From the NCBI GenBank assembly GCA_013289875.1, contig JABCZC010000008.1, positions 1-64,000 of the forward strand: 64,000 bases of DNA, written 5' to 3'. Source of the DNA: Acidobacteriota bacterium (GTDB lineage: Bacteria; Acidobacteriota; Terriglobia; Terriglobales; Acidobacteriaceae). The translations under genes and the position numbers were made by a program. Below are positions 3,389-47,501 of the stretch, one piece after another. The notes under the pieces were generated by a model. The model was not told the origin of the DNA. It searched no databases and saw nothing but the letters and a program-made list of their open reading frames with translations. Position 1 is the stretch's first letter. Every line of letters starts with the position of its first letter.

Positions 3389-3790
3389 ATGAGCGATACC
3401 CGAAAGACCACCATTGCCCCCATGCTTTCGGTCCGCGGCGGCGCCCGGGCGGTGGACTTCTACAAAGCTGCCTTCGGAGCCACCGAGTTGTTCCGCATTG
3501 ACGCCGAGGATGGGGCGGTCGTCGCCCAGTTGTCCGTGGACGGAGCCGAATTCTGGCTTGCCGACGAGTCGCCGGAGCACTTCAACTTCAGCCCCGAGTC
3601 ACTCGGAGGCGGGACTGTGCGGATGATACTGACCGTCGAAGATCCCGATGCCGCCTTCGATCGCGCCGTCGCCGCGGGAGCCAGAATACTGTGGCCCGTC
3701 GCCAATCAACATGGCTGGCGCCTGGGACGCATCGTCGATCCTTTCGGTCACCATTGGGAAATCGGCAAACCCCTGCGCGAAGGCTCTTGA
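3389..3790 (+). CDS. VOC-superfamily (glyoxalase/PhnB-like) protein
   Basis: A 133-residue single-module vicinal-oxygen-chelate protein. It opens with APMLSVRGGARAVDFYKAAF and ends with DPFGHHWEIGKP, the paired beta-alpha-beta-beta-beta signatures of the PhnB/YP_glyoxalase type. Members bind a divalent metal and act as lyases, isomerases, dioxygenases or drug-binding proteins, so the substrate cannot be named. A perfect AGGAGG at 3377-3382 fixes the ATG at 3389. It follows the thioredoxin-fold gene by 24 nt and may share its transcript. Cytoplasmic; no signal peptide. Confidence 0.85.
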   Translation: MSDTRKTTIAPMLSVRGGARAVDFYKAAFGATELFRIDAEDGAVVAQLSVDGAEFWLADESPEHFNFSPESLGGGTVRMILTVEDPDAAFDRAVAAGARILWPVANQHGWRLGRIVDPFGHHWEIGKPLREGS

Positions 3791-36775: not shown

Positions 36776-37702
36776 ATGCGTAAGAAAGTCACCATCGTCG
36801 GAGCCGGCAACGTGGGAGCCACTGCCGCCCACTGGATAGCCGCCAAAGAACTCGCCGATGTCGTCCTCGTCGATGTCGTTGAGGGCATTCCCCAGGGCAA
36901 AGGGCTCGACCTGCTCGAGGCCATGCCCATCGAGAAGCGCGACTCGCACATCGTCGGCACCAATGATTATGCCGACACCGCCAACTCCGACATCGTCGTC
37001 ATCACCGCCGGCATCCCGCGCAAGCCTGGCATGAGCCGCGATGACCTCCTGCAGACCAACTACAAGATCATGTCCGACGTCGTCGGCAAGGTGGTCGCCA
37101 ACTCACCGGACACCATCCTGATCATCGTCTCGAACCCGCTTGATGCGATGGCCCAGGCCGCCTACCGCCAGTCGAAGTTTAACCGCGAACGCGTCATCGG
37201 CATGGCCGGAATCCTCGATTCGGCCCGCTTCCGCACCTTCATCGCCGAGGAGCTCAACGTCTCCGTCGAAAACGTCACCGCCTTCGTCCTCGGCGGCCAC
37301 GGAGACACCATGGTCCCACTCCCGCGCTACTCCACCGTCGCCGGCATCCCCATCACCGAGCTCATCGAGAAGTCGCGCCTCGAAGCCATCGTGCAGCGCA
37401 CCCGCGACGGCGGCGCCGAGATCGTCAAGCATCTCAAGACCGGCAGCGCCTACTACGCGCCGTCTGCCGCAGCGGTCGAGATGGTCGAAGCCATCCTCAA
37501 AGACAAGAAGAAGATCGTGCCCTGCGCCGCCTATCTCGAAGGCGAGTACGGCATCACCGGCTACTACATCGGAGTCCCCTGCAAACTCGGCTCCCGCGGC
37601 CTCGAACAAATCATCGAGATCAAGCTCACTCCCGAAGAGGACGCGGCCCTCAAAAAGAGCGCCGAAGCAGTGAAGGAGTTGTGCGCGGTTATCGGCGTTT
37701 AG
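36776..37702 (+). CDS. mdh: Malate dehydrogenase (LDH-like type)
   Basis: A 308-residue NAD-dependent enzyme that interconverts malate and oxaloacetate. It begins [20 protein letters not shown] (Rossmann motif), has the substrate loop [14 protein letters not shown] with the specificity arginines, and the catalytic His in [14 protein letters not shown]. The length and the GAGNVG start place it in the LDH-like MDH group. AGAAGGAG precedes ATG at 36776. With icd 91 nt upstream this is a two-gene TCA unit. A C-rich repeat element begins 8 nt beyond the stop codon. Confidence 0.97.
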
Positions 37703-37710
37703 GACCGGAC

Positions 37711-37988
37711 GGGGAGGGGGTACCCCCCTCCCCCCTTATCAGGCATATCTCGTGTAAATCATAGATTCTGTTTAACTTCATACCTGCCCGCTGCTGGCAA
37801 AATCATTGATTTTAATGATCTCGCGAGTAAATCAATGATCCAGCTGGAGTTACGGACGGTCATTGATTCTGCTGAATCTGCGAGCGCGTCATTGATGGCA
37901 TTGGTCATAGCAATAAGAAAGCCCGCTCCATGGCGGGCTTTCTGCTCTCTATTTCTATTCTAGCGGACTGCGGGAAATAGTCGGCCAA
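37711..37988 (+). repeat. Composite 3'-adjacent intergenic element, copy 1
   Basis: Begins with the near-palindrome GGGGAGGGGGTACCCCCC then TCCCCCC (37711-37735). It continues with degenerate units containing TCATTGATT/GATTCT (37764, 37803, 37828, 37861, 37889) and ends with a 43-nt module starting TCTCTATTTCTATT (37946-37988). Copies 2 (47237-47501) and 3 (41929-42130, opposite strand) share this order. It sits right after the mdh stop in the same orientation. Confidence 0.65.
37916..37943. terminator. Bidirectional terminator hairpin
   Basis: AGAAAGCCCGC and GCGGGCTTTCT form a perfect 11-bp stem with a 6-nt loop, giving A-rich/T-rich flanks on both strands. It lies between mdh (plus) and the SRPBCC gene (minus), so it can end both transcripts. 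It falls inside repeat copy 1, but the other two copies do not have it. Confidence 0.8.
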
Positions 37989-41800: not shown

Positions 41801-41928
41801 TCCAGATACTCCGAAATTCCGGTGTCAAGGTCGAAAGCCAAAATGGTTTCGCAACCCATTCATTCTCAGGCTAAACCCACCCAACAAAATTGGCCGTCAA
41901 TTACCCCATCTCCCATATAATCAGGGTA

Positions 41929-42130
41929 GGCGGTGACTCTTCAGCCGCAGTCTGCGACAAAAAACCCGCAAATAGTACAAGCCATTTAGAATCAATTGGT
42001 TCCAAGTGGTGGAGCCCGCGAGCAGTGTGAGCCTTTTAGAATCAATCGGTAACAAAAGCGCCAAAAGCCAGCAGCGCAAGCCCTTCAGAATCAGTCAGTC
42101 TCAAAATCGCTAAGATATGGGGGAGGGGGT
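41929..42130 (-). repeat. Composite 3'-adjacent intergenic element, copy 3 (minus orientation)
   Basis: On the minus strand it begins with ACCCCCTCCCCC (42119-42130), overlapping the glycosyltransferase stop codon. Three 20-nt units of the form ACCGATTGATTCTAAAAGGC follow, 49-50 bp apart (plus-strand positions 42080-42099, 42031-42050 and 41981-42000). It ends in GACTGCGGCTGAAGAGTC (41930s-41950s), related to the end module of copies 1 and 2. Confidence 0.65.
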
Positions 42131-46208: not shown

Positions 46209-47207
46209 ATGTACATCGTAACCGGGGGGGCTGGATTTATCGGCAGCAATCTGGTCCATGAGCTGAATCTGCATGGAATCACCGATATTCTTTTGGTCGA
46301 TAATCTTGCCGATTCGCGGAAGCTTTTCAATCTGCATGGCGCCAGATTTGCAGATTACATGGACAAGAAGGAGTTTCGGCGAGCACTCGAAGAAAAGGCG
46401 CTGGGAATCTCGCGTGTCAGCGCAATTTTTCACCAGGGCGCATGCTCAAATACGTTGGTCGACGATGGCGTGTACATGATGGACAACAATTTTGCTTATT
46501 CCAAAGTGGTGTTGCGGTATGCCGTCGAGATGGGGGCACCCCTTGTTTACGCTTCGACGGCGGCTGTGTACGGGTTGGGTGGACCGGGCCACTTTACGCC
46601 GATCCTGGAGAATGAGAGGCCGTTGAACATCTATGGCTTCTCCAAGCTAACCTTCGATCATTATGTCCGCTCTGAGCTCGCGATGGGGCACATTCCGACC
46701 ACGGTGGTAGGGTTGCGGTACTTCAACGTGTATGGGCCTCGTGAACAGCACAAGGGGCGGATGGCTTCCGTGATTCATCACTTCTCGAAGCAGATACTGG
46801 AGACGGGCAAAGTGCGGCTCTTCGAGGGGTCGGGCGGATATGGCAATGGCGAGCAGCGCAGGGATTTCGTATTCGTTCGCGATGTGTCGCGGCTGAATAT
46901 GTTTTTCGCACAGACCGGTCCGTACACACCCCGGCATGCCGATTCGGCAAAGACATATCAAGCGGTAGTGAATGCCGGTTCGGGGCGGGCCCGGACATTC
47001 AATGAGGTGGCAAAGGCGGTTATGCTGGTACACGGGAAGGCAGATGTTGAGTACGTGCCCTTACCCGCAGACCTGAACGCCCGCTACCAGCACTTCACAC
47101 AGGCCGATCTAACCGGCTTGCGCGAAACGGGGTGCGAGCTGAAGTTTACTCAGCTCGAAGAAGGAATCCGTGAGACGTTTCAGGCAACAAATGCCGTTGC
47201 AGTCTAA
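46209..47207 (+). CDS. hldD: ADP-L-glycero-D-manno-heptose 6-epimerase
   Basis: A 332-residue extended SDR epimerase that converts ADP-D-glycero- to ADP-L-glycero-beta-D-manno-heptose, the last step to the heptose donor of LPS core. Marks: MYIVTGGAGFIGSNLVHELN, HQGACSNTLVDDGVYMMDNN (HldD-specific), Ser and Tyr-x3-Lys in YASTAAVYG and NIYGFSKLTFDHY, RYFNVYGPREQHKGRMASVI, and the C-terminal YVPLPADLNARYQHFTQADL. The set is complete in this window with gmhA, gmhB and hldE. Repeat copy 2 lies behind the stop codon. Confidence 0.96.
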   Translation: MYIVTGGAGFIGSNLVHELNLHGITDILLVDNLADSRKLFNLHGARFADYMDKKEFRRALEEKALGISRVSAIFHQGACSNTLVDDGVYMMDNNFAYSKVVLRYAVEMGAPLVYASTAAVYGLGGPGHFTPILENERPLNIYGFSKLTFDHYVRSELAMGHIPTTVVGLRYFNVYGPREQHKGRMASVIHHFSKQILETGKVRLFEGSGGYGNGEQRRDFVFVRDVSRLNMFFAQTGPYTPRHADSAKTYQAVVNAGSGRARTFNEVAKAVMLVHGKADVEYVPLPADLNARYQHFTQADLTGLRETGCELKFTQLEEGIRETFQATNAVAV

Positions 47208-47236: not shown

Positions 47237-47501
47237 AGTGGGGTACCCCCTCCCCCGTCGTCAGGTGCGAATTTGGGACCCATTCATTCCCTAGGCCTTG
47301 TGCTGCTATGGTTTGCAACTCACAGATTCTAAATATGAATTTGGTAATCGATTCATTGCAAACGGCTTAGAGTCACTCGTTGATTCTATTGGCCGCGGTA
47401 CCCGATCATTCATTCCAAAGTGGTTAGCGGCGCTTACCGGTGCTCTCAATCGTTTTTGTCTCTATTTCTATTTTAGTGAATGCGGCGAAATAGTCCGCCA
47501 A
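47237..47501 (+). repeat. Composite 3'-adjacent intergenic element, copy 2
   Basis: Starts with GTGGGGTACCCCCTCCCCC (47239-47256), 30 nt after the hldD stop and in the same orientation. Degenerate units with GATTCT at 47325 and 47382 and a GATTCA at 47350 follow, and it ends in the 43-nt module starting TCTCTATTTCTATT (47459-47501), identical to copy 1 at about 36 of 43 positions with one small offset. No gene is visible in the gap. Confidence 0.65.

Follow-up and report, generated by a model that had tools for sequence, protein, structure and literature searches.

In bacteria, MITEs are short sequences in dispersed copies, with terminal inverted repeats and target-site duplications. In REPIN-RAYT systems (PMC3116915), dispersed extragenic repeats have copies beside a trans-acting gene and are thought to co-evolve with it; each repeat (REPIN) is a pair of inverted REP sequences, and the transposase is of the tyrosine type. 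The TAACTGA direct repeats of the Beggiatoaceae (PMC4679880) are heptamers of unknown function upstream of start codons. In searches of open-licence papers we recognised no description of the element reported here, or of the protein linked to it.

The element is a composite repeat from the Acidobacteriaceae, which we studied in a window (the whole stretch of 64,000 nucleotides that was analysed), in the rest of its 5.05-Mb genome, and in relatives. Like the REPIN-RAYT systems, it has dispersed copies, some of them beside a linked gene. Unlike in those systems, the product of this gene, CxH, is a small Cys/His protein with no transposase match, and unlike REPINs, the element is about 200-800 bp long, with a promoter-like box and an array of units without excess folding. 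It resembles MITEs in being short and dispersed, with an open reading frame (ORF) in some copies and internal deletions in others, but terminal inverted repeats and target-site duplications were not found. With the TAACTGA repeats it shares repeated short units upstream of start codons; unlike those heptamers, the units are about 28 bp long, lie 29, 40 or 51 bp apart, and belong to a fixed composite with a promoter-like box, a hairpin and a G-tract.

Parts of the element and the three copies in the window

An earlier note on this DNA had placed copies behind mdh, hldD and a CgeB-like glycosyltransferase gene. All three are present at the positions it gave, and the CCCCCTCCCCC tract does begin just past the stop codons (21 nt on for mdh, 38 nt for hldD and 0 nt for the glycosyltransferase gene). 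The names mdh and hldD were borne out by NCBIfam, while the third gene matched Pfam Glyco_trans_1_2. The note had read the repeats in the direction of these genes, but the element reads best on the opposite strand. On its own strand it consists of a promoter-like box (TTGGC..ATTTC..TAnAAT), a GC hairpin, 28-bp units, and GGGGGAGGGGG followed by TACC. The parts in the window are:

37700-37702, plus strand: stop codon of mdh
37724-37734, minus strand: G-tract end of copy 1 (exact CCCCCTCCCCC C-tract on the plus strand, 21 nt past the stop), within a GGGGAGGGGGTACCCCCCTCCCC palindrome
37752-37779, minus strand: copy 1 unit 3, 44 bp on from unit 2 (PWM score 18.1)
37796-37823, minus strand: copy 1 unit 2, 29 bp on from unit 1 (weak, score 3.3)
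37825-37852, minus strand: copy 1 unit 1 (score 7.6)
37917-37942, no strand assigned: copy 1 GC-rich hairpin, terminator-like
37946-37988, minus strand: copy 1 promoter-like module, with TTGGC at 37984-37988 and the -10-like TAGAAT at 37957-37962 (R1 model match, E 2.4e-11)
41823-41828, plus strand: outer TGTCAA motif of copy 2, which copies from other genera have at their left end
41890-41932, plus strand: copy 2 degenerate promoter-like module, with TTGGC at 41890-41894 and TATAAT at 41916-41921
41978-42005, plus strand: copy 2 unit 1 (score 24.0)
42028-42055, plus strand: copy 2 unit 2, 50 bp on (score 25.8)
42077-42104, plus strand: copy 2 unit 3, 49 bp on (score 18.9)
42119-42129, plus strand: copy 2 G-tract end (exact CCCCCTCCCCC tract on the minus strand), immediately next to the stop codon of the glycosyltransferase gene, which lies on the minus strand
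47205-47207, plus strand: stop codon of hldD
47246-47256, minus strand: copy 3 G-tract end (exact CCCCCTCCCCC tract on the plus strand, 38 nt past the stop), then TACCCC
47273-47300, minus strand: copy 3 unit 3, 40 bp on from unit 2 (score 22.5)
47313-47340, minus strand: copy 3 unit 2, 29 bp on from unit 1 (score 8.0)
47342-47369, minus strand: copy 3 unit 1 (score 27.0); no strong hairpin was seen between this unit and the module
47459-47501, minus strand: copy 3 promoter-like module, with TTGGC at 47497-47501 and TAAAAT at 47470-47475 (R1 match, E 1.0e-10)

The modules of copies 1 and 3 are identical at 34 of 43 positions, rather than at about 36 as first counted. The reduced module that had been noted in the 42-kb copy is present, but it is weak: it matches 24 of the 37 fixed positions and was not listed by the genome-wide model of the 43-nt module at E ≤ 1. 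Within the window, the tract is found five times with at most one mismatch (1.38 expected; none of 100 shuffles reached five), while the module word with up to three mismatches, searched in the window alone, is found nine times against 6.36 expected, which is not significant.

On the element strand the module reads TTGGCCGAnAATTTCCCCnAAnCCGnTAnAATAGAAATAGAGA. In 43 aligned modules (those with at least 24 of the 37 fixed positions matched), the T, A, A and T of TAnAAT never vary, and the fifth base is A in 42. Judged by sequence alone, this nearly invariant box, which is kept in other genera, resembles the TATAAT-like -10 box of sigma-70 promoters. A -35 box (TTGACA at about 17 bp) was not found in the module; instead, a conserved TTGGC lies 19-21 nt upstream of TAnAAT, which by this spacing is too distant for an ordinary -35. 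Past the module the usual order is the GC hairpin, the units (with AGAATC and AATCAATGA when read on the element strand), then the G-tract. In seven copies of this genome and some in relatives, an ORF follows the module on the element strand, and the ORFs downstream on that strand have ribosome-binding-like sites.

The 28-bp unit, TAActCcaaTgGAATGAATGGgTTACAa, has 186 sites in 79 tract-bearing copies from this genome and two congeners (G003 and G006). In these three genomes the spacings between neighbouring units cluster at 29, 39-41 and 50-52 bp. The 29/40/51 series has a vector strength of 0.75 with a best period of 11.1 bp (104 spacings), a phasing whose significance is overstated because the copies are related. 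The three window copies have spacings of 29 and 44, 50 and 49, and 29 and 40 bp. In G251, which belongs to another genus, the unit differs (TAACyCCaaTAGAAAGACGATTTTAG), and 20 of 47 spacings are 29 bp and 19 are 40-41 bp, the other eight being 8, 12, 17, 19, 32 or 61 bp. In G206, 13 of 34 spacings are 29 bp, 7 are 40 bp, and 7 are 32-33 bp; the last come with extra motif matches 7-9 bp apart. The 29/40 pattern was not recovered from the few spacings obtained in G417 and G375 (9, 26, 28, 43 and 44 bp).

We folded 29 copies from this genome. The hairpin region has a mean z of -3.1, while the unit region has a mean z of 0.0 on the element strand (0 of 29 copies below -2) and -0.3 on the opposite strand (about 3 of 29 below -2). 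The earlier note had suggested a REP-like mobile element; the dispersed-repeat part of this comparison is close in spirit, but in these copies the units are not the palindromic hairpin units of REPs and REPINs. We reject an array of RNA hairpins, as the unit regions of these 29 copies fold like shuffled sequence. Because the unit regions lack excess RNA folding and the hairpin has it, we favour the units as DNA-binding sites. Sites along one face of the DNA account for the steps of about 11 bp better than RNA hairpins do, though 11 is also the repeat of the A form.

A dispersed family that leans towards gene 3' ends

The module word occurs with at most one mismatch at 30 places in this genome, versus none for the reversed control. 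All but two of these places (L020 and L022) share the full 43-nt module. A sequence-only model of the module, built from 36 modules that therefore match by construction, gave 57 matches at E ≤ 0.01 in this genome, among the best 150 first-look candidates, and 48 of the 57 have a G/C tract within 900 nt downstream. Conversely, 32 of 40 listed GGGGGAGGGGG matches (two pairs of which overlap) sit on copies that the model found; among the other eight, remnants of units or promoter are visible by eye in the third window copy and in several more, but not in C15:69124. The same model gave 27 matches in G003, 32 in G006, 10 in G005, 6 in G008, 3 in G007 and 1 in G004, and none in the near-complete congeners G001 and G002.

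Of 120 genomes of the family, 14 have the element by a multi-genus model with stricter filters: 49 copies in this genome, 35 in G251, 25 in G206, 19 in G417, 4 in G375 (Acidobacterium sp. S8), 3 in G078, and one in each of eight others, with none in the remaining 106. We also retrieved 21 of the 35 copies of G251, 20 of 25 from G206, 17 of 19 from G417, all four from G375, and one from G405. In this genome most copies are solo, lacking the CxH gene, and solo copies are found in other genera too.

Among the matches listed between copies, homology in full-length pairs (L003/L008, L008/L171 and L004/L010 among them) starts at most a few bases from TTGGC and stops no more than about 10 bases from the end of the tract. 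Many other listed matches span only the module and hairpin, some start 10-19 bases further left, and a few lie purely in the flanks. The pair L011/L023 shares an additional 215 bp of left flank. We also noticed two copies (L015 at C10:55126 and L172 at C10:56884) that lie in the same orientation about 1.76 kb apart.

As the earlier note had foreseen, the further copies are many and lean towards the 3' ends of genes. Its statement that the repeat always lies in the gene's orientation is true of the three window copies but fails for the wider family. The tract-end gene is convergent with the element in 35 of 48 copies in this genome (p 0.002) and in 84 of 127 overall (p 0.0003 against one half, gene-bearing copies included), and is co-directional in the other 43. 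These 127 are the scored copies of 162 retrieved; the rest had no recognised tract in range or not enough flank, and G405 was excluded. By genome, the convergent share is 20 of 31 in G003 and G006 (p 0.15), 11 of 21 in G251, 11 of 17 in G206, and 7 of 10 in G417 and G375, with none of the last three significant. Gene orientations came from a codon-score caller trained on 25 ORFs of the window, so single calls may err. At the far end of the element, the neighbour's 3' end faces the copy in 26 of 42 cases in this genome. The copies thus tend to sit away from 5' ends, and their preference for 3' ends is a bias rather than a rule.

Where the tract-end gene is convergent, its stop codon is close to the tract: the distance is 1-44 nt for 29 of 35 copies in this genome, and 4-17 nt for 17 of 22 copies in G251 and G206. 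The hairpin may serve as a terminator for this gene: in G251 and G206 (18 copies each), a T-run with at least five Ts is found on the convergent gene's strand in 13 and 16 copies, versus 6 and 2 on the element strand. This genome has no such strand preference (18 versus 19 of 53).

At seven mdh loci in six congeners, inspection by eye of a few hundred bases past the stop codon revealed no element, and at least five of the seven have a terminator-like hairpin after mdh. At one locus without the element (contig C137 of G006), 106 nt separate the matched stretches, versus 357 in the window. The intergenic DNA there could not be aligned by eye, so it gave neither a clean empty site nor an exact insertion point.

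Many sites are shared between species. In 10 of the 21 G251 copies, the tract-side gene is also the tract-side gene of one of 20 G206 copies. In this genome, 7 of 57 copies share their tract-side gene, in the same orientation, with a copy in G003 or G006 (42 of the 59 copies there were compared), and some more share the other flank. These shared genes imply that sites are often old. In eight G251-G206 pairs, conserved columns of the element agree at 93.5-100% and variable columns at 59% (51% against non-matching copies), so the promoter box, units and tract are kept. Homogenisation between copies is an alternative to selection and could mimic constraint; the matching copy is the closest over the whole element in only four of the eight pairs.

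The CxH gene behind the element

In this genome, seven copies have an ORF behind the hairpin. Six of these ORFs (L021, L024, L026, L029, L044 and L047) encode a protein with a Cys/His motif, although L021 was read only in part and L047 has one Cys replaced by Trp. At the seventh copy (L042, C22:27005-27046 and downstream), an unrelated ORF of 114 amino acids starting with MSNIFQKLGIGIADFGKWF stands in the position of CxH, and it has no family match above a curated cut-off. Three other copies (L004, L046 and L010) match L029 at both ends with the middle missing, as would internal deletions of full copies such as L029.

In other genera, relatives of the element's ORF are mostly longer. Of 22 loci examined, 17 show the Cys/His motif and five do not by the motif pattern. 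At the 17 CxH loci, which come from sister genera and from contig C104 of this genome, we looked by eye for the order promoter, hairpin, units, G-tract, start codon. It is complete at eight loci (two pairs among these have near-identical leaders), partial at six and absent at three; at the eight, the G-tract lies shortly ahead of the CxH start codon. At least four of the family's genera have the layout ahead of a CxH gene. It was seen there in G251 and G206 (one copy apiece), in G375 (two copies) and in G417 (a tandem pair). By coordinates, three further CxH genes of G417 lie within 1 kb of a promoter match. The ORF follows the tract in other genera, while in the ORF-bearing copies of the window's own genus it precedes the units. 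In the G417 tandem pair (L364, C1:4467889-4468225), two promoter-hairpin modules stand ahead of a single CxH gene.

CxH genes were found in 62 of the 120 genomes. Of the 14 genomes that carry the element, all but G013 have one (13 genomes), as do 49 of the 106 without it (Fisher p 0.001, which is overstated because the genomes are related; the sets of 120 genomes used for element and gene were taken to be identical). In four pairs, dN/dS of CxH was 0.17, 0.05, 0.30 and 0.23; by these ratios, CxH is under purifying selection. Searches against protein libraries gave no match above any curated cut-off, PHROGs gave weak matches mostly to families of unknown function (the best, E 0.0031, being one of these), and PADLOC gave no match at 0.1. 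The N-terminal Cys/His motif is weakly similar to DUF5763 / HGGxSTG-type Cys motif proteins, with all matches below the curated cut-off and with the conserved C-terminal LLLYGLQ region of CxH not covered. The element family draws attention to a conserved Acidobacteriaceae protein that has no name yet.

What the repeats may be

We propose that the repeats are dispersed copies of the upstream control region of the CxH gene and are probably bound by a protein, a reading to which, taken whole, we give an even chance. There is good support for their identity as copies of the CxH control region. Several findings count against the proposal: TTGGC is too distant from TAnAAT for an ordinary -35; a terminator-like hairpin lies right behind the presumed transcript start; three of the 17 CxH loci lack the layout, and five of the 22 loci lack the motif; 49 genomes carry CxH without a detected element, although the filters were stringent; G251 also has spacings outside the series, and G417 and G375 did not yield 29/40; about 3 of 29 unit regions fall below -2 on the opposite strand; homogenisation could pass for constraint; and the ORF precedes the units in the window's own genus but follows the tract in others. 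The phased, unstructured units give good grounds to infer that a protein binds them, while CxH as that protein would be a guess. What the data show is the architecture, the size of the family, its presence across genera, the link with CxH, unit regions free of RNA structure, and retention at many sites; promoter activity, protein binding, the binder's identity, effects on neighbours and the way copies spread are inferred.

Each element has a promoter-like box, usually a hairpin at the presumed transcript start, units of about 28 bp whose spacings rise by increments near 11 bp, and then a G-rich end. Under this proposal, the transcript would start at the AGAAATAGAGA end of the copy. A protein, plausibly CxH itself, would bind the phased units as double-stranded DNA and control the element's promoter, so that a gene-bearing copy would be autoregulated. 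Solo copies would be further bound and controlled sites; short transcripts would run from them in the direction of the neighbouring gene, for which they may also provide a terminator. That they regulate neighbouring genes is again a guess.

The repeats could instead be selfish miniature mobile DNA that is non-autonomous, is moved in trans by a transposase, and uses the 3' ends of genes as safe sites with no function for the host. Homology that begins close to TTGGC and ends close to the G-tract in full-length pairs, the ORF-deleted relatives of L029, the mdh loci of congeners that lack the element, and the patchy spread from tens of copies in four genomes to none in 106 of 120 all fit this explanation. 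However, direct repeats in the flanks are no longer than in shuffled pairs (38, 48 and 30 copies), so there is no sign of target duplication; the left end and the reverse complement of the right end share only 4-7 nt (21 G251 copies, with no shuffled control); and we recognised no transposase among the ORFs inside copies of this genome, G003 or G006. The sites common to several species and the retention of the conserved blocks also argue against purely selfish DNA, which we consider a real but rather unlikely possibility. We think it less likely still that the copies are a family of small-RNA genes, whose short RNAs would titrate an RNA-binding protein through the units or G-tract or would pair with mRNAs. 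Their own promoter-like start, the strongly folding hairpin region, their intergenic placement and the GGGAGG in the G-tract would suit such genes, but the unit region has no excess structure, DNA offers a simpler explanation for the steps of about 11 bp, and Rfam 15 gave no match at the gathering score in the window, nor in 15 loci, where all four matches up to E 1 fell below it. The least probable of these explanations, and in our judgement an improbable one, is that of the earlier note, in which the repeat belongs to the 3' end of the host gene and acts in processing, termination or mRNA stability. The short distances from convergent stops to the tract and the strand preference of the T-runs in G251 and G206 speak for it; against it, a third of the scored copies are co-directional with the tract-end gene (in G251, 10 versus 11 convergent), T-runs in this genome have no strand preference, the promoter-like box and the ORFs face the opposite way, and the layout recurs upstream of CxH start codons. 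A primary role at 3' ends is therefore unsupported.

To return to the control-region proposal, a broader form of it is possible, though we hold it only tentatively: a promoter with a helically phased operator array may have multiplied, independently of known transposases, into tens of solo copies that are bound by the product of the gene it controls, many of them at conserved intergenic sites. This would amount to a dispersed nucleoprotein network with a lineage-specific recognition code. If true, bacteria would have, in addition to REPIN-RAYT, another system that pairs one gene with a set of dispersed repeats, built on another protein and on repeats that carry a promoter. Spread, retention and function are open to test in the single-contig genomes G251 and G417 and in Acidobacterium sp. 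S8, which all have copies.

Some copies have other features in or beside them. At L371 in G375 (3455-3506, minus strand), one terminator-like hairpin is similar to the 3'-terminal part of Rfam sX6; with an E of 0.0033 the match stays under the gathering score, and the hairpin is probably just a terminator. In this genome, the left flanks of L001, L002, L010, L012 and L024 have a second repeat-like sequence adjoining the element, with words of the GGGATTAG/TAATCCCTG type. In several copies from other genomes (L317, L321, L325 and L331 in G251; L340, L343 and L346 in G206), a whole or partial REP-like sequence around GCCGAAGGCGTCGAGAACCGCACGAAGTGC abuts the TGTCAAG left end.
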